Below, piece after piece: positions 2,716 to 11,967 of a stretch of 34,686 nt of DNA. The notes under the pieces are model-generated. The model saw only the letters and a program-made list of their open reading frames with translations, was not told where the DNA came from and did not search any database. Origin of the DNA: Nitrospirota bacterium (GTDB taxonomy: Bacteria > Nitrospirota > Thermodesulfovibrionia > UBA6902). The DNA lies in NCBI GenBank assembly GCA_016222905.1, contig JACRPZ010000031.1:1-34686 (forward strand). The letters are read 5' to 3'. The position numbers and the translations under genes are program-made. Positions within the stretch are counted from its first letter, which is position 1. Every line of letters begins with the position of its first letter.

Positions 2716-5700
2716 CTAATTGCTGCACCCTGCGTTTATCACTTCCGTCACCCTGCCCTGAAACTCCGCTGAGTCTACATAAAGCTGCAGCATCTCCGCT
2801 CTTGTATAAGCGCCTCCGTCAAGCTCTCCAAGCCAGTACAGATACCCCGCAAGGTCCGCACCTCTTCTAAGTATGCCGTTATAATAGTCCTCTATGCACT
2901 CGCTGTTGCTCGTATTCCTGTCCGCATATTCCTGACTCTGCAGAAAATTTAATGCTATCTGTGATGTGAGGTCTCTTATCGCCTGAGCATTACCATTGCA
3001 CTGGGCTGTCTGCATCTCTCCAAGCCAGTAGTTGAATCCTCCATTGTCCGGCAGTCTGCTCAGAAATCCCCTGTAGAGGTCATTTACAAGGTTATACTCA
3101 GGCCTTACTGTTGTGTCACCGAATATTCCGTCCATGTACGTCTTGAACTCCGCGCTGAATATGAAGTAGTTCATAAGCAGGTTCCTTGTTAATCCTCCTG
3201 AAAGCTCTCCTGACCAGTAGCCTGCTTCTCCCTGTGTAGGCGTCCTGCCGAGGAAGGTCTCATACAGGTCTGTTACATATGCACTATTCGTTGTGTTCAT
3301 ATTCAGATACTCACCTGAATTGAAGAAGAGTTTGCCGAGCGCTATGAATCCTTCTTTTATGTCTATACCGTCTGCGTCAATCCGTTGTATCTCGCTTGTC
3401 CAGCCCTCTGCTCCTCCGGGTTCAGGAGACCTGTTCAGGATGCTGTTGTAGTAGTAAGTTACAAGATTATTCATTTTTGGAGAGTTCTTATCTAACGGAT
3501 CTGATCCAGCCTGAACTTCATCATAATCGCTGTAGCCGTCACCGTCAGTATCCGTAATAAATGGATTAGTGCCACGTGTATATTCCTCGCCGTCCGTGAG
3601 TCCGTCTCCGTCCGTGTCAGGATTGCTCACGTTTGTCCCAAGCGCCGTTTCCTCTGCATCGGTCAGTCCGTCATGGTCGCGGTCGTTGTTTTCTACCATG
3701 TCCGACAGGAAGCTCTCTGTGCCGTCCGCTTTTATTGCGGATACAGCATATTGGCTTGTCACAATGGCTGCGTCTTCAACCCATGCATCACCGGGGTTGA
3801 AAGAGTTCGTGACAGAAGTCCCTATTTGTGAAAGATATGGCTCGTCCTCGAACTTGGCATAGATGTTATACCCTGTGACAGAAGGGTCTGCGCTTGCAGT
3901 CCACGTGAGTGCTGTCTTCAGACCGCCTGCATCATAGGCCTCTGCCTGAAGGCCGGTCGGCGGAAGCGGCGTGTGGTTTACAGTGATTTTGTCGGCAGAG
4001 GCTGAATTTACCATGATGGTGAAAGATATCGTCTCTGCGTGGTTGAATCCATGATAATTATAATTCTCCGTCTCTGTGCTATCCATATATCCGATATTTA
4101 ACCGGTAGTCTTCGCTATAGATACCCTTAAGGTAAACTGTGTATGTTCCATCAACAGGATTGTTTAAAGATATATTTCCTGCCTCTATCCCGATAGAAAC
4201 ATCCGTATCCGGAATATAATTTTCCATATCTCCGGTGTTTGGATTTATGCCGCTTCCATTTCCATTAGGGTCAACAATGTATGGCTGTACACGTCCGTCC
4301 ATCCCTAATGAAAGAATATTCGTCAATGCCTGCGGTTGTGCATGAATTCTCAATACAGGGCTGAGCGGCGCAAATGGCTCGTCTCCTGTGATGAAGACAA
4401 TTATCTCCCCCAGGAATGTATTGATTAATCCGGCGTGGCTTCCATCTTTTGGCGCAGGCGGATCAAGAAAACTCAATGCCGCGCTCTCATCTTTTAATAC
4501 GGTACCATCACCGGTTGTGGGTCTGTCAGGATATTTAAAAAGCCTTGAAACCGGCACACCATCAGGGTAAAGATCACCGCTCTGCGGAGGGTTGCCGACA
4601 TATATTTTACTGATCGTCTTTTCGTTGTTGCCCGCGAATATTTTTGTCCTGACGCCTGTGCCGTCATTGGTCATTCTGTCTGTATCATTATCACTATTCA
4701 GATTCTTCAGGGATGTATTCTCTTCTGCGGCAATACTCCCTTTGCTCAGCACGCCGCTGAATGTGGGCATGAGCCATTTTAAAGCAGGCACATGGGTATG
4801 CGCCATATCATAGGCTTCCTTCTCGTCGCATTGCCATCCGATTACAGGCTGCTTCACGCAGAGCGGATATTTTTTATAAACAATATGCATGGCGTTAAAA
4901 GTATTCATGTAGAAATTCAGAAATTCCAGATACCACGGCTCATTCAGATCATCGGCAAGTTTCGGATCGCCTCCTTCCCACATATAATAGGCGGTTGCCG
5001 CTCCATGATTAGGAGTACCGACCATAGCAAACCTGTTTATGTCGTCATCATACTGATCGCTCTGTATATATGTCCGCGTCAGCAGTCCTCCCATGCTGTG
5101 AGCAACAATGTTCACCTCTGTTGTCCCTGCCTTTGCCTTTGCATCATCAATCCAGGGCTTGAGATATTTGACCCATGCGTCATTTAAGTCCATTCGCCAG
5201 TCATAAGGCACGTCAAACATGGTGCAGTTCTCTTCATAGCCATAATCAACTCTCAAAACATACTTGAGATAAAACCAGCCTGTTGCTCCCAAAGGATTAG
5301 GCGGTATTCCCTTAGGGTCATGCAGGACGAGTTTACCGCTGTTCCATTTGGGCGCGTCTTCCGGCAAGCGCGGATAAATAGAAAAATGATACTTGCTGTC
5401 AGAGCCTGCTATCCCCGGCACAAGGAGTATCGGGAGCCTGCCGTCAGGGTTGCAGTAAGAGATCATTAAGTTTTCCGCCTCTGTTCGTCCGCAGGCAACT
5501 ATTACCTCATGCACCTGACTATATTTGCCGTTATGTTCAGCCCTCACATAATATTCCCCGCATGATTTATTGTTGAAATAATAATACCCATTGGCTGCTG
5601 TCGTTGAACTGACCGGCTCTCCCCCGTCTTTAGGGGATATGCGGTACAAATTGACAAGAGCGCCGTCTATCATCTGTTTGTCTGTATCTTTTACAGTGCC

Positions 5701-6450
5701 GTGAAGATTGCCGGTGCTTAACCCCCCGCCGGTCACATCAAACGTATTGCTCGTTCCGTATCTTCCGGTTGCGGTTGCGCCAAGGTAAATGCCTGTGCCG
5801 CCTTCATAGAGCGTTACATCCCCTGTCCATGTCCCGTTGTTAAACCATGCTGTTATAGGGGTCACCGAGCCTGCGTTGCTATAGAGAGAGACCGGCCCAT
5901 TGTAATTAACATCCTCTGCCGTGATAGTCACGATGAAGGGCGTGCCGACTGATTTGGGAGAAGAGATATAAGAAAAATCAAAATAATCAAATGACCCAGA
6001 CTGTCCGCCCCGAACGCACCGCACGTAGTTGCTATTGAGCTTACTGTAGCCGTTGACGTAGCCATAGTAGAAGCCCACGTGCCACGCGCCGTTCGGACTG
6101 CCTGCGTAGGTAGTAGACGACCAGTAGTAGGACGCAAGGGCATTCGGGAAATAATTAGTATCTATTGCGGGATTATAGCGTGAATCATCAGTAATGGATT
6201 CAAGTTCCTTGCTATTCGGCAGACGCCAGTCTGTGCTGCCTCCGAGGGAAAGCCCGTTACAATATGACAAGGCCGAACCCCATGTCATATAACCCGGCTC
6301 ACCCTGCTGCCACACAAGTCCTGTCCTGATGTCAGTCACCGTGCCGTTGCCGTTGTTCGTAAAAGGCGCGGCAAAAGATAGCGCAGAACAAAAGAGCAGC
6401 AGGCAGCAGACCATAGTAAGAATTAATTTTAGTTTCATCATCTTTTTCAT
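2716..6450 (-). CDS. DGR target 2: secreted DUF1566/lipase/TSP3/DUF4214 protein with internal variable region
   Basis: 1244 residues from ATG 6450, chosen because GGAGG lies seven bases upstream; an upstream in-frame ATG at 6495 has no such site. Order of parts: signal peptide 1-27; DUF1566/Lcl-type domain about 30-149 with NGTVTDIRTGLVW, DWRLPNSKELESI, YYWSSTT and the closing YVRCVRGG; VR2 covers about 105-150; Ig-like region about 155-240; carboxypeptidase-regulatory-like repeat about 247-330; alpha/beta-hydrolase of LCAT/lipase type from about 338 with LLVPGIAGS and the nucleophile elbow AHSMGG (Ser452), then GTPNHG; FN3-like about 830-920; three thrombospondin-type-3 Asp-rich calcium repeats about 921-992 (DHDGLTDAEE, DTDGDGLTDGEE, DTDGDGYSDYDE); three to four DUF4214-like repeats 993-1244 with LYxxxLxRxPDxxGxxYW cores. 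The DGR places the hypervariable surface beside an enzyme rather than at the C terminus. Ligand and lipid substrate are unknown; I did not assign the Asp and His of the triad. Confidence 0.93.
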   Translation of the reverse strand: MKKMMKLKLILTMVCCLLLFCSALSFAAPFTNNGNGTVTDIRTGLVWQQGEPGYMTWGSALSYCNGLSLGGSTDWRLPNSKELESITDDSRYNPAIDTNYFPNALASYYWSSTTYAGSPNGAWHVGFYYGYVNGYSKLNSNYVRCVRGGQSGSFDYFDFSYISSPKSVGTPFIVTITAEDVNYNGPVSLYSNAGSVTPITAWFNNGTWTGDVTLYEGGTGIYLGATATGRYGTSNTFDVTGGGLSTGNLHGTVKDTDKQMIDGALVNLYRISPKDGGEPVSSTTAANGYYYFNNKSCGEYYVRAEHNGKYSQVHEVIVACGRTEAENLMISYCNPDGRLPILLVPGIAGSDSKYHFSIYPRLPEDAPKWNSGKLVLHDPKGIPPNPLGATGWFYLKYVLRVDYGYEENCTMFDVPYDWRMDLNDAWVKYLKPWIDDAKAKAGTTEVNIVAHSMGGLLTRTYIQSDQYDDDINRFAMVGTPNHGAATAYYMWEGGDPKLADDLNEPWYLEFLNFYMNTFNAMHIVYKKYPLCVKQPVIGWQCDEKEAYDMAHTHVPALKWLMPTFSGVLSKGSIAAEENTSLKNLNSDNDTDRMTNDGTGVRTKIFAGNNEKTISKIYVGNPPQSGDLYPDGVPVSRLFKYPDRPTTGDGTVLKDESAALSFLDPPAPKDGSHAGLINTFLGEIIVFITGDEPFAPLSPVLRIHAQPQALTNILSLGMDGRVQPYIVDPNGNGSGINPNTGDMENYIPDTDVSIGIEAGNISLNNPVDGTYTVYLKGIYSEDYRLNIGYMDSTETENYNYHGFNHAETISFTIMVNSASADKITVNHTPLPPTGLQAEAYDAGGLKTALTWTASADPSVTGYNIYAKFEDEPYLSQIGTSVTNSFNPGDAWVEDAAIVTSQYAVSAIKADGTESFLSDMVENNDRDHDGLTDAEETALGTNVSNPDTDGDGLTDGEEYTRGTNPFITDTDGDGYSDYDEVQAGSDPLDKNSPKMNNLVTYYYNSILNRSPEPGGAEGWTSEIQRIDADGIDIKEGFIALGKLFFNSGEYLNMNTTNSAYVTDLYETFLGRTPTQGEAGYWSGELSGGLTRNLLMNYFIFSAEFKTYMDGIFGDTTVRPEYNLVNDLYRGFLSRLPDNGGFNYWLGEMQTAQCNGNAQAIRDLTSQIALNFLQSQEYADRNTSNSECIEDYYNGILRRGADLAGYLYWLGELDGGAYTRAEMLQLYVDSAEFQGRVTEVINAGCSN
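6001..6136 (-). repeat. DGR variable repeat 2 (VR2), internal to the lipase target
   Basis: Aligns without gaps to the TR (constant offset of 3010 bases). I count 20 differences, all at plus-strand T in the TR, meaning coding-strand A: 11 A-to-G, 6 A-to-T, 3 A-to-C. No other TR base is changed. The encoded segment runs from ASYYWSSTT to YVRCVRGGQ. The final variable codon is CAG (Gln150), where TR has AAG and VR1 has the stop TAG, so the frame continues. Confidence 0.96.
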
Positions 6451-6520
6451 ATATAAACCTCCATTCGTAAAATTAAGTAAGCGCCTCAGTGCCATAAACT
6501 ACAGTTCCACAGGCCGAAAA

Positions 6521-6546
6521 TAACAGGTGTTCTATTGCCTGTGTTA
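6521..6546. promoter_or_regulatory. Imperfect inverted repeat, candidate toxin-antitoxin operator
   Basis: TAACAGG on the left and CCTGTGTTA on the right form an imperfect inverted repeat immediately before the extended -10 of the antitoxin gene, and a wider CACAGGC/GCCTGTG pair (6508-6514 and 6537-6543) overlaps it. Antitoxins commonly autoregulate through such sites. It also lies in the divergent region upstream of the target 2 gene, so it could affect both directions. Assignment is by position and symmetry only. Confidence 0.35.
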
Positions 6547-6550
6547 CTTG

Positions 6551-6559
6551 TGATATACT
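6551..6559 (+). promoter_or_regulatory. Extended -10 promoter of the antitoxin gene
   Basis: TGATATACT matches the extended -10 form TGnTATAmT. The ATG at 6566 falls where transcription would begin and no Shine-Dalgarno sequence precedes it, so the mRNA may be leaderless. Confidence 0.5.
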
Positions 6560-6565
6560 AAAAAT

Positions 6566-6790
6566 ATGAATACCGCAACAAAAGAGATCAATGACATCAG
6601 TGAAGTGCTCCCTGAACTCCCGGTTGACGCATTGCGCGAAATCAGGGATTTTGCATTCTATCTTGCCAACAGAGAGCAACGCCGCAGAAAATTCGTCAAA
6701 GAAGTCCGCAGAGCCGAACAGGAACGGCCTATAAAATTCAAGTCTGTCGAAGATGCAATGGCCGCTATCAGGAATGAAGCGGGAATTTAA
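6566..6790 (+). CDS. Antitoxin-like small protein of a type II toxin-antitoxin pair
   Basis: 74 residues. The middle has LPELPVDALREIRDFAFYLA, a helix typical of DUF2281-like and related antitoxin N-termini. It is followed by a very basic/acidic linker (NREQRRRKFVKEVRRAEQE) and a C-terminal SVEDAMAAIRNEAGI, similar to the toxin-wrapping tails of small antitoxins. It overlaps the downstream RelE-like gene by 17 bases, the usual antitoxin-first arrangement. No ribosome binding site is visible. Alternative: a stand-alone DUF2281-type protein; the tight coupling makes the antitoxin reading more likely. Confidence 0.75.
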   Translation: MNTATKEINDISEVLPELPVDALREIRDFAFYLANREQRRRKFVKEVRRAEQERPIKFKSVEDAMAAIRNEAGI

Positions 6791-7043
6791 TTTTGCGCCC
6801 TCCTTCCTTAAGAAGGCAGGAAAACTGCTGCAAAAGAATCCTTCGTTAGACCCTGAATATGAAGTAACACTAAGCAGGCTATTGAAAAACCCCTTTGATC
6901 CGGAACTACATTCCCATCCTCTCAGCGGGGATTTAAAAGACCGGTATGCCTGCTCTGTTACATATAAAATCCGCATTGTATTCAGGTTACATGACAACAT
7001 TATTCACCTTCTCAACATCGGCAGCCATGACGAAGTTTATTAG
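6774..7043 (+). CDS. RelE/YafQ-like toxin (mRNA interferase fold)
   Basis: 89 residues from the ATG at 6774, which overlaps the antitoxin end; a longer in-frame start at 6753 would add seven residues read from inside the antitoxin gene. RelE-superfamily features are visible: an N-terminal helical FLKKAGKLLQKNP segment, the HSHPLSGDLKDRYACSVT block (L-x-G...R-x-x-R/Y pattern), a YKIRIVFRL strand and a final IIHLLNIGSHDEVY strand where many family members have the catalytic or near-catalytic His/Tyr. Such toxins cleave mRNA on the ribosome. The 3' end overlaps the end of the convergent RT gene by 32 bases. The pair sits between the DGR RT and the second target, where it could stabilise the locus; this role is inference. 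Confidence 0.8.
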   Translation: MKREFNFAPSFLKKAGKLLQKNPSLDPEYEVTLSRLLKNPFDPELHSHPLSGDLKDRYACSVTYKIRIVFRLHDNIIHLLNIGSHDEVY

Positions 7044-9075
7044 TTTCACAGCGCAGTAGAGCCGTAGGCAAAATAGTATCTTGGTGTGCGGCTGGTCTGC
7101 CCGCCTGCGATACTCGGCATTCTCTGAATATCTCCGTAATCACTCTCTTCTTCAATCCCGAAGGGTAATAGCCCCGTTCACCAACGACTACATAAGGCAG
7201 ACCCGCATTAAGGGCCTTAGCCTTGAATGCCTTCAGATGCCTGACCGGAAACCCGCAGAAGATGTCAAAATTTCTCCCTCGCCCCTTGGGGGAGAGGGTT
7301 GGGGTGAGGGGTGACAGTCCGAAAAACCTTCCATACCGCTCAGCCTGTTCCCCATAAAACTCGCAGAATTTCCCCACCTGAAAAAAGATGCAATGCTCCG
7401 GATATTGTTCCATAGCCCACCGATACTGCCTGCGAAGATTTGCAGGCTCAAAGGTAGGCTCATATAGCGATACAAGGCGGCCTTCATCGTTTATGGCAAA
7501 AACATATTTAAGATATTCATATTTTTCAAACAGACTGCGGGTAAGTTTATATGAGTTTGCATATTTGAAGTGTCCCAGATAGGAAGCAAGCGTCTGCCTG
7601 AGCTGCCGGACTTTTTCCTCACGGAGATGAATGCGAAAAAATCCCCCCTCGCCCCCCTTTGCCAAAGTGGGAATTTCTAAATATTCCCCTCTTGAGAGGG
7701 GATTAAGGGGTGTGTTATTTCTCTTTGACACATTCTTGTTTTTTGTCCCCCTCTTTGGCAAAGAGGGGTTAGGGGAGATTTTCTGATAGGCCTGCACCAT
7801 CTCCTCTTCAAAACTCCTCAGCCGTGCCCTCAGATTTCCAATCACCCTGTCGCGCACCAGAACATAATCCGGCCGCACAATGTAGCCAAGAAAATTTGCG
7901 CCTTCAGATACCCGCTTAAGAGTGGTCTCAGGTTTCAGTTGCAGCGCGAGTTTCTCATTGAGAAATTTAGCTATCTTCTCCTTCATTTCAAGAAGCCTCT
8001 CACGGTTTGTATCAAGCAGGATAAAATCATCCACATACCTGAGGTAATGCCGCGCCTTCAATGTATGCTTCACAAACTGATCCAGTTCATTGAGATAGAC
8101 ATTTCCGAAAAACTGTGAAGTGAGATTGCCGATTGGAAGCCCCTTGCCCGGCGGAATGGTAAATAGCGACTTATGCGGCGGAATCCCCTTAAGAAGGCTG
8201 GGGTCGCCTTTGTAAACATAGTCTTTTGTGCAGTCCTGATTCACGATGATTTCAGCAAGCCGGAGAATTGCATCGGCAAAAGAATTTTGATCATAAAATC
8301 CCCCCTCGCCCCCCTTTTTCAAAGTGGGGTCACAGGCATTATCCCTCTTCAATAAAGTGGAGTTCAAATTACGGCATTGTCTGAATGTAGTTTCCCCATT
8401 TGCCAAACTGGGAATTTCTAAATATTTCCCTCTTGAGAGGGGATTAAGGGGTGTGTCACTTCTCTTTGACGCATTCTCGTCTTTTATTCCCCTCTTTGGC
8501 AAAGAGGGGTCAGGGGAGATTTTCCTATTGTTTAATCCCTTCCTTACATTCTTCTCCAGAATCCCCATCAAAATCTCCCGGTCTATACTCATAAAGAAAC
8601 TCCTGATATCAAGCTGCATAAACCATGCGGCCACGCGCCCGGACTTTGTGACACGATGCATAAATATCTTCAGCCGCTCAACAGCGGCATGAGTGCCTTT
8701 TCCTGTCCGGCAGGCATAGGAGTCGTGGATAAACTTGGGCTCGAATATCTTTTCAATCTGCGGCACCAGGAGATGATGCACCACCCTGTCCCTGAAATCG
8801 GCGGCGAATATCTCTCTGAGTTTCGGCTGTTTTGCGACAAAGCAGACAGAGCGGGAAGGACTGTAGGAGCCGTCCTGAAGACTGCTGCTGAGGTCTGTGA
8901 GGTTGTCAAGCAGAGACGCCTCGAACCTCAGAGCATTAATGGTATTCCGCTTTCTTCTCCTGCATGAGACATAGGCGTCATGCAGAGACCTGAAGGAATA
9001 CAGGCGATCACTTTCCGCCCCGAACGCACCGCACGTAGTTGTTATTGTTCTTATTGTTGTTGTTGACGTTGCCAT
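7012..9075 (-). CDS. DGR reverse transcriptase with MutS-I-like C-terminal domain and in-frame repeat insertions
   Basis: 687 residues from the only in-frame ATG (9075), which lies inside the TR; a CTG at 9003 is another possible start. The RT homology begins at about residue 25 (LYSFRSLHDAYV). Visible motifs: FRDRVVHHLLVP (94-105), DSYACRTGKGTHAAV (118-132), QLDIRSFFMSID with first catalytic Asp156, GLPIGNLTSQ (312-321), which contains the IGxxxSQ pattern of DGR RTs, and the YVDD active site (347-350). The thumb region includes YLGHFKYANSYKL (499-511). Residues about 555-650 (CIFFQVGKFCEFYGEQAERY...FCGFPVRHLKAF) resemble MutS domain I. Three stretches are in-frame palindromic repeats: about 185-261, 432-480 and 588-602; these explain much of the unusual length. 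Adenine-specific change in both VRs argues that an active enzyme existed. Confidence 0.93.
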   Translation of the reverse strand: MATSTTTIRTITTTCGAFGAESDRLYSFRSLHDAYVSCRRRKRNTINALRFEASLLDNLTDLSSSLQDGSYSPSRSVCFVAKQPKLREIFAADFRDRVVHHLLVPQIEKIFEPKFIHDSYACRTGKGTHAAVERLKIFMHRVTKSGRVAAWFMQLDIRSFFMSIDREILMGILEKNVRKGLNNRKISPDPSLPKRGIKDENASKRSDTPLNPLSRGKYLEIPSLANGETTFRQCRNLNSTLLKRDNACDPTLKKGGEGGFYDQNSFADAILRLAEIIVNQDCTKDYVYKGDPSLLKGIPPHKSLFTIPPGKGLPIGNLTSQFFGNVYLNELDQFVKHTLKARHYLRYVDDFILLDTNRERLLEMKEKIAKFLNEKLALQLKPETTLKRVSEGANFLGYIVRPDYVLVRDRVIGNLRARLRSFEEEMVQAYQKISPNPSLPKRGTKNKNVSKRNNTPLNPLSRGEYLEIPTLAKGGEGGFFRIHLREEKVRQLRQTLASYLGHFKYANSYKLTRSLFEKYEYLKYVFAINDEGRLVSLYEPTFEPANLRRQYRWAMEQYPEHCIFFQVGKFCEFYGEQAERYGRFFGLSPLTPTLSPKGRGRNFDIFCGFPVRHLKAFKAKALNAGLPYVVVGERGYYPSGLKKRVITEIFRECRVSQAGRPAAHQDTILPTALLRCETNKLRHGCRC
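7271..7314. repeat. GC-rich palindromic repeat in the RT C-terminal domain
   Basis: TCTCCCTCGCCCC and GGGGTGAGGGGTGA arms around a GGGGGAGAGGG centre. On the minus strand it reads in frame as SPLTPTLSPKGRG. L-T-P-T-L-S-P-x-G-R-G-like peptides are a familiar product of a widespread bacterial palindromic repeat. It sits in the MutS-I-like domain between FFGL and FDIFCGFP. Confidence 0.85.
7637..7783. repeat. Interspersed palindromic repeat, in frame in the RT thumb region (copy 2)
   Basis: About 147 bases (49 codons). It is bounded by ATCCCCCCTCGCCCCCC and AGGGGAGATTTTC arms and contains TTTGCCAAAG, TCTTGAGAGGGGATTAAGGGG and CTCTTTGGCAAAGAGGGG modules. It shares most of its sequence with the copy at 8296-8524. 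On the minus strand it reads NPSLPKRG...TPLNPLSRG...TLAKGGEGG without a stop. Confidence 0.9.
8296..8524. repeat. Interspersed palindromic repeat, in frame in the RT palm region (copy 1)
   Basis: About 229 bases with the same outer arms and inner modules as 7637-7783, plus an extra ~80-base part around CTTCAATAAAGTGG and TTTTTCAAAGTGGGG that looks like a second, nested element. It is read through in frame as DPSLPKRG...TPLNPLSRG...TLKKGGEGG. It lies between the first catalytic Asp region and the GLPIGNLTSQ motif. Confidence 0.88.
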
Positions 9076-9146
9076 TGTTGAAGTTCACGTTCCACGCGTT
9101 GTTCGGATTGTTTGCGTTGGTAGTAGACGACCAGTAGTAGGACGCA
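9008..9146 (-). repeat. DGR template repeat (TR)
   Basis: The donor copy for VR1 and VR2, recognised because it is the common ancestor of both: every VR difference falls on an adenine of its minus strand. It reads as ASYYWSSTT, then a run very rich in AAC/AAT Asn codons, then YVRCVRGGK and TGA. AAC/AAT codons are the usual DGR design because mutating both adenines reaches many amino acids without a stop. The TR is not part of a target gene. Its 3' part overlaps the RT open frame, and the transcript presumably serves as the template RNA. Confidence 0.96.
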
Positions 9147-9270
9147 TTTACCCGGCCTCTTTACGGCCCTTTGGCCCTCCGCAGGCCGATCCTGAAGGAG
9201 CGTACGGCCTGCTGTTCTTGATGCCAGCAATAGATTACTGACAAGCATAAAAGCAATATGACATATTTCG

Positions 9271-9349
9271 AAAAATCTCCCCGCACCCCTCTTTGAAAAA
9301 GAGGGGCATGATACCTCACTTTGGCAAAGGGAGGATAGGAGGGATTTTT
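9271..9349. repeat. Palindromic repeat between target 1 and TR
   Basis: AAAAATCTCCCC and AGGAGGGATTTTT outer arms with inner CCCCTCTTTGAAAAAGAGGGG hairpin and a TTTGGCAAAG module. It belongs to the same repeat group as the copies inside the RT gene, and here it is intergenic. Confidence 0.85.
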
Positions 9350-9430
9350 CATTTAATGTCTTCATACCTCTAACCCCTTCAGTAATAAATCTGCGGGCGG
9401 GCCGGGCGCACAGTGATCATAGGCTCGCTC

Positions 9431-9451
9431 GCTGAAGCATCATGCATCAGC
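9431..9451. other. 21-base palindrome 80 bases past VR1
   Basis: GCTGA-A-GCAT-C-ATGC-A-TCAGC is self-complementary except for one A/A mismatch. Some DGRs need a hairpin or cruciform just after the VR for target recognition. This one is further away (about 80 bases) than the classical case, so the role is uncertain. Confidence 0.3.
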
Positions 9452-9530
9452 AATTCCGGCCTTGGCTCTACATCCTTTCCCCGCTCTGTCTGCTCTATCA
9501 AAAAAATCATCAAAGTACCAAATTACCAAG

Positions 9531-9668
9531 TCACTATCCGCCCCGAACGCACCGCACGTAGTAGCTATAGTACTTACCGTAGTAGTAGACGTAGCCATCG
9601 TAGAAGTTCACGTTCCACGCGTAGTACGGATAGTAGGCGTTGGTAGTAGACGACCAGTAGTAGGACGC
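9531..9668 (-). repeat. DGR variable repeat 1 (VR1), C-terminal end of target 1
   Basis: Aligns gap-free to the TR at a constant offset of 523. I count 18 differences, all at TR adenines of the coding strand: 13 A-to-T, 4 A-to-G, 1 A-to-C. Twelve Asn codons of the TR have become Tyr. The last change turns TR AAG into TAG, the stop codon of target 1, with TGA immediately behind it. Confidence 0.97.
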
Positions 9669-10220
9669 TACTGTATTCGAAAAATATGTTGCATTAATTG
9701 TCGGGCCCGGATATGGAATTGAATAATCTACAATCGTTATCAGTTCCTTCTTGGAGGGCAGACGCCAGTCTGAATAACCGCCGAGGTTGAGCGAGCCGCA
9801 GACATACTGTGAAGATGGATTATACGTCGCGTTATATGTGCCGGATGCCTTATACCAGTTGTAGGTCACAGCCGTGCCGCTGCAAGTCGCATCGTTGTTC
9901 TGCCCCACACTGCACTTCTGCCACATCATCCCTGTATTGTTGTCCGTCACAGTTCCGTTGCCGTTGTTAGAGAAACTCATCGGATTGATGTTATATTCCC
10001 CATCCTGCCCGGTGCCTGCGCATGGGATTTCATCATATGGACTAACGTCCCTGTAGCACCGAGTCTGTCCGGTGTCGGGCTGCTTGAAGGCGTAAGACAG
10101 AGCCACAGAACAGCAGAGCAATAGTGCCACAGAGCAAAAGACCAACAACCCCCTTAATCCCCCTTTTCTAAGGGGGAAGTTTAAACTGCCGATCCCCGTG
10201 ATTCCTAATAATCTACGCAT
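9534..10220 (-). CDS. DGR target 1: secreted DUF1566 variable protein
   Basis: 228 residues. The start at 10220 is supported by AAGGAGG nine bases upstream. A hydrophobic export signal lies at about 25-44 (GLLVFCSVALLLCCSVALSYA), preceded by an N-terminal extension whose FPLRKGGLRG part is encoded by a palindromic repeat. The mature part has the DUF1566/Lcl pattern: FSNNGNGTVTDNNTGMMWQK, GGYSDWRLPSKKEL, then the variable end YYWSSTTNAYYPYYAW...YVRCVRGG. VR1 encodes residues about 185-228. DUF1566-type proteins are a common DGR target class, thought to display the variable face from a C-type-lectin-like fold. No lipid anchor motif is obvious, though CCSVAL cysteines lie in the signal region. 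It lies 65 bases after avd and before the TR and RT, in one probable transcription unit. Confidence 0.94.
   Translation of the reverse strand: MRRLLGITGIGSLNFPLRKGGLRGLLVFCSVALLLCCSVALSYAFKQPDTGQTRCYRDVSPYDEIPCAGTGQDGEYNINPMSFSNNGNGTVTDNNTGMMWQKCSVGQNNDATCSGTAVTYNWYKASGTYNATYNPSSQYVCGSLNLGGYSDWRLPSKKELITIVDYSIPYPGPTINATYFSNTVASYYWSSTTNAYYPYYAWNVNFYDGYVYYYGKYYSYYVRCVRGG
10143..10180. repeat. Palindromic repeat in the target 1 signal-peptide region
   Basis: CAACAACCCCCTTAATCCCCC followed by TTTTCTAAGGGGG; read in frame on the minus strand as FPLRKGGLRGLL. It is in inverse orientation to the copy at 10263-10299, so the two bracket the ribosome binding site and start of target 1. Confidence 0.85.
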
Positions 10221-10262
10221 ACTTCAATCCTCCTTAATAAATTCAATTCTTCAATCATGCCT

Positions 10263-10299
10263 TTATTCCCCCTTAACAAAGGGGGTCAGGGGGTTGTTG
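10263..10299. repeat. Palindromic repeat overlapping the avd stop codon
   Basis: CCCCCTTAACAAAGGGGG hairpin with TCAGGGGGTTGTTG; on the minus strand it begins CAACAACCCCCTGA, so the repeat supplies the last codons (TTP) and the stop of avd. Confidence 0.85.
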
Positions 10300-10648
10300 C
10301 TTTCCCCCTCACACTCTTTATCCATCCCTCGCTCTGCCTGCTGAGTAACACCGCCGCCTCAGCCGCATATTGAAACGAGCTGAAGCTTTTGAACGCCTTT
10401 ACTTCCTTGCATATCTGTATCGTCACCTTTAACTGCTCAATCGTGTTTCTGAGTACGACCAGCTCCTGTAATTTGGCTTCACTGGAATTTGCGGATATGA
10501 TGAGCCTGACAATCTCACGGGAAATATCTCTGAGGTCAGAGCCGATGCTGTATTTGTGATACCGTGAAAACCCTTTGACCATGTTTTCAATATAGACCGC
10601 AAGGTCCATCGCCTTTTTGTATATAGGCAGATGCTCATACCGCGCCAT
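10286..10648 (-). CDS. avd: DGR accessory variability determinant (Avd, four-helix bundle)
   Basis: 120 residues, the usual size. It begins MARYEHLPIYKKAMDLAVYI and continues with KGFSRYHKYSIGSDLRDISREIV and IISANSS, matching the Avd/S23-like four-helix family (P-x-Y-K-K-A-x-D-L...F-P/S-R-x-x-K-Y-x-I/L-G-x-x-L-R). Avd forms a barrel-shaped pentamer that binds the DGR RT and template RNA and is needed for mutagenic cDNA synthesis. It is the first gene of the DGR unit, 65 bases before target 1. GAGG directly abuts the ATG, so translation initiation may be weak. The C-terminal end and stop lie inside a palindromic repeat, which probably changed the last residues. Confidence 0.93.
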   Translation of the reverse strand: MARYEHLPIYKKAMDLAVYIENMVKGFSRYHKYSIGSDLRDISREIVRLIISANSSEAKLQELVVLRNTIEQLKVTIQICKEVKAFKSFSSFQYAAEAAVLLSRQSEGWIKSVRGKATTP

Positions 10649-10660
10649 CCTCAGAAAGAC

Positions 10661-10698
10661 AGAGCTATAGCTCTAAAGTTCCATAGCGCTATAGCTCT
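10661..10698. promoter_or_regulatory. Palindromic direct repeats just upstream of avd
   Basis: AGAGCTATAGCTCT (10661-10674) is a perfect 14-base palindrome; GCTATAGCTCT recurs at 10688-10698 next to a second palindrome ATAGCGCTAT. The pair lies 13-50 bases before the avd start, inside the leader. It could be an operator or an RNA hairpin near the ribosome entry site; the choice is open. Confidence 0.4.
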
Positions 10699-10727
10699 TT
10701 TAAAATTTTTTTCTTCTAAAAGGAAAA

Positions 10728-10755
10728 ACTGACTGACTGACTGACTGACTGACTG
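10728..10755. repeat. Tetranucleotide tract, (ACTG) x 7
   Basis: Seven perfect ACTG units (CAGT on the minus strand). It lies in the presumed avd leader, about 80 bases before the avd start and about 75 bases after the predicted transcription start. Tracts of this type change length by slipped-strand mispairing. Confidence 0.95.
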
Positions 10756-10838
10756 CGCAAGTTTGATACCATCTGTTTTATCCTGTGCTGTATTGTAGTT
10801 AAAACTCTTCAGCTAAGAAAAAATAGTATTACAAGGAT

Positions 10839-10866
10839 AATATAGCCGTAGTATGTGTATTGTCAA
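10839..10866 (-). promoter_or_regulatory. Sigma-70-like promoter of the DGR operon
   Basis: On the minus strand TTGACA (10866-10861), a 16-base spacer and TATATT (10844-10839). The predicted start is near 10832, giving a leader of about 185 bases before avd. The ompA terminator lies just upstream, so this is an isolated promoter. Confidence 0.7.
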
Positions 10867-10878
10867 GGGAAAAGACAT

Positions 10879-10921
10879 AAAAAAAGGGAAGTACGGCAAG
10901 ACTGCGCGTACTTCCCTTTTT
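10879..10921. terminator. Intrinsic terminator downstream of the OmpA-like gene
   Basis: GGGAAGTACG, short loop, CGTACTTCCC, flanked by A and T runs. It follows the ompA-like stop by 11 bases on the minus strand. It is the same sequence, with one loop base fewer, as the terminator at 2643-2690. Confidence 0.88.
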
Positions 10922-10932
10922 AGCGTTCTATA

Positions 10933-11967
10933 CTACTTTGTAATGATAGCTGAAATGACCCCGATTACGCGGCGGTTCATCTGCCTGCCTTCTTTTGTCT
11001 TGTTGTCGGCAATCGGTTTTGATTCGCCAAACCCCTCTGCCTTAAGCCGATCGGCCTTAACGCCGAAATTCTTTATAAGGTAAAGCCTGACATTTTCAGC
11101 CCTCTTGTGAGAGAGATTGTGATTATACTCCTCGCTTCCTATGCTGTCCGTATGCCCTTCTATTACTCCTTCAGCATCAGGATATGCGGTTAAAAAGTTT
11201 GCCACCTTCTGAAGATGGTCATTGTAAACCGACTTTATCTCAGCCTTGTCAAAGTCGAACTCCACTTTTAAATCAATCACTACTTTTTCGGTAAGCGGGA
11301 TAGGACAACCTACGCTGTCAACTTTTATCCCCTTAGGTGTATTCGGGCATTTATCTTTATCATCATAGACCCCGTCGCCGTCGCTGTCTGCTGGAGCAGG
11401 CGGAGCTTTCTTTTCAACAACAGGACGGACAGGTTCTTTCTTCCCGAAGAGATATGTAATGCCAACGGTGTAAATCTGGTGGTTATCAGAGCCGTCTATT
11501 TCATAAATATTACGGACATCCCCACGCAACTGTAACTTGTCGTTAATGGAATACTTTAGGCCTGCTCCGAAATCAAACAAGACAGAAAAACCATCTTCTT
11601 TGTTATCTGAGCTTACATCTATAAAACCGAGGCCCGCGGCAAGATAAGGCGCAAGTTTATCTTTTGGCATAAGATCATAAAGCCCGTCAAATCGCAGAAG
11701 CTTTGCATCAGCATTATGATTTGTTGATTTGGTTTTAAAATCAACATAATTAAAAACAGCTTCAACGCCCAACCTGTCAGTATAGTTGTATCCAAAACCC
11801 AGCCCAACGGCAGAGCCGTTTTTCATCCCCTCTTCATGGCTAAAAGAATACCCGCCTAAATAAGGAGTGAGCGTAAAAAAGCCCGCTTTGCTTTCTGCCA
11901 TGACATTGCCAAGTGAAACAAGTAAAACAAAAAACGTTGCAACAACCGCAATAAACATCTTCTTCAT
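10933..11967 (-). CDS. OmpA/OprF-like outer membrane porin with TSP3 linker
   Basis: 344 residues. Signal peptide 1-24 (ends VMAES). An eight-strand beta-barrel region spans about 28-175, with alternating aromatic strands ending TVGITYLFG. A Pro/Ala/Lys linker (178-193) is followed by a calcium-binding thrombospondin-type-3 repeat (DSDGDGVYDDKDKCP, 194-208, with Cys208 and Cys221). The OmpA C-terminal peptidoglycan-binding domain is at about 228-340, with VEFDFDKAEI, EGHTDSIGSEEYN, LSHKRAENVRLYL and the NRRV motif. It anchors the outer membrane to the cell wall and may form a small pore. It is monocistronic: its own terminator lies at 10879-10921 and the upstream gene is 120 bases away. Confidence 0.93.
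   Translation of the reverse strand: MKKMFIAVVATFFVLLVSLGNVMAESKAGFFTLTPYLGGYSFSHEEGMKNGSAVGLGFGYNYTDRLGVEAVFNYVDFKTKSTNHNADAKLLRFDGLYDLMPKDKLAPYLAAGLGFIDVSSDNKEDGFSVLFDFGAGLKYSINDKLQLRGDVRNIYEIDGSDNHQIYTVGITYLFGKKEPVRPVVEKKAPPAPADSDGDGVYDDKDKCPNTPKGIKVDSVGCPIPLTEKVVIDLKVEFDFDKAEIKSVYNDHLQKVANFLTAYPDAEGVIEGHTDSIGSEEYNHNLSHKRAENVRLYLIKNFGVKADRLKAEGFGESKPIADNKTKEGRQMNRRVIGVISAIITK

Follow-up and report, generated by a model that had tools for sequence, protein, structure and literature searches.

Palindromic repeats from two dispersed families lie in frame in the reverse transcriptase gene of an apparently active DGR from Nitrospirota

Palindromic repeats that lie in frame within genes are already known from Rickettsia, Wolbachia, and other bacteria (PMC2229807, PMC10969869, PMC3733652). 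A guanylate kinase that carries one of these elements (an RPE) was reported to be translated and active (PMC2229807; PMC10969869). Intragenic REPs have been reported in several species, and the CGTC-1 REP superfamily includes RPE-6 of Rickettsia conorii (PMC3733652). Our search of the literature for the repeats described below turned up nothing relevant for Nitrospirae.

We analyzed a 34,686-nt stretch of DNA from a Nitrospirota bacterium (the window), which is a draft contig from a genome of 2.84 Mb in 90 contigs. Around 7012-9075, the window contains a complete DGR: a reverse transcriptase (RT), an Avd protein, a template region (TR), and two variable regions (VR1 and VR2) with adenine-specific changes. 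We think it very probable that non-autonomous palindromic repeats from two unrelated dispersed families have inserted in the RT gene of this active DGR, and that they are tolerated in loops of the enzyme and read through.

The RT (7012-9075, reverse strand) is a 687-residue protein by its open reading frame and its Pfam matches (RVT_1, 1.3e-16; MutS_I, 3.5e-07). Its closest solved structure is the DGR RT 8ub7 (2.7e-39 by sequence; TM score of 0.85 on the target by fold). The other components are also on the reverse strand. Comparing TR to VR places the TR at 9010-9147, VR2 at 6000-6136, and VR1 at 9533-9668; the first ATG of the RT frame (9073-9075) falls within the TR. In order of position, the two target genes, as identified with Pfam, are 2716-6495 (Lcl_C, LCAT, and DUF4214), which contains VR2, and 9534-10220 (Lcl_C), which has VR1 at its 3' end. 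The Avd accessory protein is at 10286-10648 (Pfam bAvd, 41.4 bits, with a cut-off of 40).

The C terminus of the RT (7012-7440) is a MutS_I-like domain that contains GKFCEFY, which resembles the Phe-X-Glu motif by which MutS recognizes mismatches. MutS_I is also matched in 10 of 14 related RTs, and we found no paper that describes this fusion in the literature that we searched.

Two other features of the locus should be mentioned. Near-identical 43-nt hairpins (2644-2686 and 10879-10921) stand on both sides of the whole DGR cassette and are otherwise nearly absent from the genome (one additional match, with two mismatches); they might be terminators or insertion borders. Also, a pair of small genes lies on the opposite strand between a target gene and the RT (6566-7043), and the second of these matches the YafQ toxin in Pfam.

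A sequence-only reading of this DNA had proposed that the RT contains three palindromic repeats in frame, and this was borne out: the frame stays open for 687 codons across all three, which are on the reverse strand like the gene. The insert at site 1 (8296-8524, about residues 184-260) is between RT motif 3, with the catalytic Asp, and GLPIGNLTSQ. It belongs to family B and, rather than being a single repeat, is a composite of several hairpins. The insert at site 2 (7637-7783, about residues 431-480) is also a family-B palindrome. It had been placed in the thumb, but it is outside the thumb helices: it occupies the loop of a beta-hairpin that immediately precedes the thumb helix. The insert at site 3 (7271-7314) is a family-A palindrome that encodes SPLTPTLSPKGRG and is in a variable loop of the MutS_I-like domain, the domain in which it had been noted. 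Sites 1 and 2 were delimited by comparison to relatives, by folding, and with a structural model, and site 3 from its matches in the genome and the model. Folded as inverted repeats, the three reach -76.0, -70.4, and -17.5 kcal/mol for sites 1, 2, and 3. Relative to an insert-free homolog (L021), the net gains by peptide span are 88, 42, and 7 amino acids, or 137 in total, which agrees with the original estimate of about 140.

The peptides from the two long copies had been described as the same. They are similar, with 92% identity over 131 nt (7653-7783 versus 8394-8524), but not identical, as 11 of the 131 nucleotides differ (10 nonsynonymous and 1 synonymous). Both are larger composites, and their middle unit and linker are not covered by any other match in the genome. 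Because the linker is common to both copies and we found it at no other place in the genome, one copy was probably duplicated from the other within the RT gene.

Both repeats are dispersed in the source genome far beyond chance. The 147-nt repeat from site 2 matches 71 places (the best E value outside the RT is 7.6e-13), and the repeat from site 3 has 33 matches. Copies of family B are mostly solo hairpins about 77-85 nt long that have inverted ends (AAAATCTCCCC...GGGGGATTTT), and those of family A are palindromes about 37 nt long; both families are G-rich. A repeat search found a solo family-B hairpin, not assigned to either strand, at 9271-9349, between the RT and the second target gene in order of position. 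With E up to 1e-4, a family-B probe matched 32 of 37 genomes from the same taxonomic family.

Most of the 75 repeat clusters that we found are outside of long open reading frames. A minority of the copies are in frame within real genes: an O-methyltransferase, a Type ISP restriction enzyme, an NTP-transferase, a P-type ATPase (Ca-ATPase), and CobB. The Pfam matches of these hosts run through the insert or flank it on both sides. (The survey sought open reading frames that span repeats, so genes that were broken by repeats are not counted.) In CobB (L088:3037-4569; L109), an 18-residue family-B insert is at a loop, and the site is empty in eight of nine relatives; the ninth (G031) has extra residues at the same place, which look different. 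Elsewhere in the genome, two adjacent paralogous transglutaminase genes (L046:2319-5519 and 7187-9937) have family-B repeats in matching positions, one in each gene.

The genome also encodes three Y1_Tnp (RAYT-like) proteins. In the loci that we read, no copy of family A or B is near these genes, so we rejected them as the drivers of these families. By eye, there is no clear target-site duplication at any of the three sites in the RT.

The relatives show that the repeats in the RT are insertions, because their sites are empty: all three in L021 (the same gene as in G353), L022, and L023, and site 1 in all of the more distant RTs. No close relative has the inserted residues as ordinary family sequence. 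Instead, some of them have unrelated repeats at the same places. At sites 1 and 2, the RTs of G022 and G025 have dimers of CGTCATTCCCGCGAAAGCGGGAATCCA type; G025 has an additional palindrome at site 3. Since the flanks are shared, the sequences suggest one ancestral event for each of sites 1 and 2 in these two genomes. Copies of this CGTC element are scattered through the genomes of G022, G025, G000, and G353, and in G022 and G025 the element fits the description of CGTC-1 REPs (a CGTC tag, an 8-bp stem ATTCCCGC, a 4-nt loop, a CCA tail, and dimers). The sequence-only reading had likened the window's repeats to the elements that enter Rickettsia genes, and the link is closer than it had supposed, as the repeats that fill sites 1 and 2 in these sister lineages fit the superfamily that includes RPE-6. 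The window's own repeats are outside of it.

In L022 and L023, the linkers that precede the MutS_I part are rich in repeats; within that part, G048 has a stretch that resembles an insert and folds strongly as a hairpin. We did not count two RTs from G207, which have about 30 extra residues at site 2, as repeat insertions because these residues do not have the look of a strong hairpin. Viral contigs yielded no relative, and phage records yielded only distant RTs.

All three of the events in sister lineages are no more than 10 residues away from the window's sites, which has a probability of 0.002 if insertions are uniform over about 510 residues. As loops are not uniform targets, we read this pattern as tolerance and not as targeting. 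Because repeats of other families have entered these same loops in sister lineages, where a repeat survives is probably decided by the tolerance of the loops and not by recognition of a single sequence.

AlphaFold's model of the RT has a mean pLDDT of 72.5, from an alignment of just 14 sequences. The segments with pLDDT below 50 (residues 1-22, 186-260, 435-476, 594-602, and 656-687) correspond to both termini and the three inserts, so in the model the inserts are low-confidence segments that link folded elements. Site 1 is predicted to connect two helices, site 2 to be the loop of a beta-hairpin, and site 3 to be a loop of the MutS_I-like domain. When the sequence is aligned to 8ub7, site 1 falls between bRT residues 164 and 175 (a 10-residue gap) and site 2 between residues 287 and 294 (a 6-residue gap).

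Is the enzyme that carries these inserts still active? VR1 differs from the TR at 18 of 48 template adenines and nowhere among 90 other positions. For VR2, the changes are at 20 of 47 template adenines and again at 0 of 90 other positions. Together there are 38 changes at adenines and none at the other 180 positions. We did not find a second DGR RT in the source genome; the remaining RT-like hits are weak and resemble the RTs of group II introns and CRISPR-type RTs. Because the TR and VRs differ only at template adenines, these data suggest that this RT, which is the only DGR RT that we found in the genome, was recently active and that the enzyme still works.

Homing likely continued after the insertions as well. 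If the VRs had aged for as long as the insert copies have, then about 15 differences at positions other than adenines would be expected, and there are none; this expectation assumes that the insert copies were identical at their origin, but they may have arrived diverged, and VR positions may be constrained. One point against this order of events is that two copies that had already diverged could have entered the gene separately.

A different view is that the RT is a decaying pseudogene, in which repeats pile up without selection, and that the adenine-only pattern is a fossil. The density of repeats in the RT would fit this (3 of the 75 clusters lie within 2.1 kb; Poisson probability of 2.6e-5), and the MutS_I part of the gene is frame-broken in G022 and G025. 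However, the window's frame is intact despite three inserts, each of which preserves it, and the absence of other differences in 180 positions is not what a fossil would show, given the roughly 15 expected. Also, the body of the RT is under purifying selection: compared to G022 and G025, dN is 0.06-0.08 and dS is 0.40-1.37, for a dN/dS of about 0.1. We consider a pseudogene to be improbable.

In G022 and G025 (L105/L106), the differences between TR and VR are still almost purely adenine-specific. Because this pattern persists despite the frame breaks, the MutS_I tail may be dispensable in these genomes, or else the breaks may be recent. In L021:3931-5987 (the DGR of Kmv42), both of the VR-bearing genes and the core of the RT are kept, and the N terminus of the RT is missing. 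We searched L021 for a TR and did not find one. With no TR found and an incomplete RT, the insert-free DGR of L021 is probably dead, while the insert-bearing DGR of the window is probably not.

Alternatively, the inserted peptides might have been recruited for a function, such as binding RNA or Avd, instead of being tolerated passengers. The peptides are basic and Gly-rich, and within each lineage the same kind of element is found at sites 1 and 2. On the other hand, the sequences of the insert copies give no sign of constraint at the protein level: the 10 nonsynonymous differences and one synonymous difference between them are consistent with neutrality (p = 0.22) and differ from the pattern in the body of the RT (Fisher p = 2e-4). 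The peptides in sister lineages are unrelated, many relatives have none, and model confidence is low at the inserts, so recruitment seems quite unlikely to us.

It also seems very unlikely that splicing or ribosomal bypassing leaves the inserts out at the RNA level to give a normal mature enzyme. Strong hairpins can border bypassed segments, and the hairpin of the 147-nt insert is very stable (-70.4 kcal/mol). But if inserts were removed from the RNA, they would not need to be in frame or free of stops, yet the verified copies within genes keep the frame, and an Rfam scan of 6000-11000 found no credible RNA family. Finally, although this is a draft contig and assemblies typically go wrong at repeats, we can hardly credit a repeat wrongly joined into the RT, as the flanks beside each insert are collinear with the relatives, independent assemblies (G022/SURF_45 and G025) also have these sites filled, and neither insert copy is identical to the other or to any further copy in the genome.

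We return to insertion of tolerated repeats as our explanation. Repeats of families A and B would have entered the RT gene, presumably by transposition. An insert would persist if it keeps the frame, if it has no stop in that frame, and if the loop tolerates extra residues. The inserts would then be translated as disordered peptides that are probably neutral. A broader proposal is that DGR RTs with MutS_I tails are recurrent landing sites for repeats, with at least three unrelated families arriving independently in the same loops while homing continued, and that the DGR locus or enzyme perhaps attracts or spreads repeats; we offer this tentatively and doubt that all of it holds.

To our knowledge, there are very few enzymes for which it has been tested whether the protein keeps working when it carries selfish palindromic repeats. 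The RT of a DGR logs its own activity in the VRs, so its function after an insertion can be judged from the genome sequence alone, and in many lineages. Where the same loop has received different repeats, nature has in effect replicated the test of where an enzyme can accommodate 30-90 extra residues. These results also extend the Rickettsia phenomenon to Nitrospirota-type bacteria.

How do these repeats compare to known systems? The RT has the same fold as 8ub7 (of Bordetella phage type), and the DGR has the same set of RT, Avd, TR, and VR, but 8ub7 has short loops where the window's RT has inserts and lacks the MutS_I-like tail. Like bacterial MITEs (ERIC, NEMIS, RUP, YPAL), family B has inverted-repeat units, of about 78 nt and ending AAAATC...GATTTT, that are open in some frames; for families A and B, we identified no target-site duplication or partner transposase. 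In contrast to the REPs of PMC3733652, the window's families have no CGTC tag and so fall outside CGTC-1, and in contrast to the GTAG REP/RAYT system they have no GTAG tag and do not flank Y1_Tnp genes in the loci read.

The closest parallel is to the palindromic elements of Rickettsia and Wolbachia. As with those elements, the window's repeats are short palindromic hairpins with many dispersed copies, both genic and intergenic, and they add peptides in frame to unrelated conserved genes whose homologs have empty sites. The likeness is in the way of working, and we do not claim that families A and B are homologous to RPEs; they are G-rich and do not bear RPE names. The host belongs to Nitrospirota and is not an obligate intracellular alphaproteobacterium. 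What is new here is the lineage, the host enzyme, a DGR RT that was struck three times and records its own activity in the genome, and the parallel colonization of the same loops by unrelated families in sister lineages.
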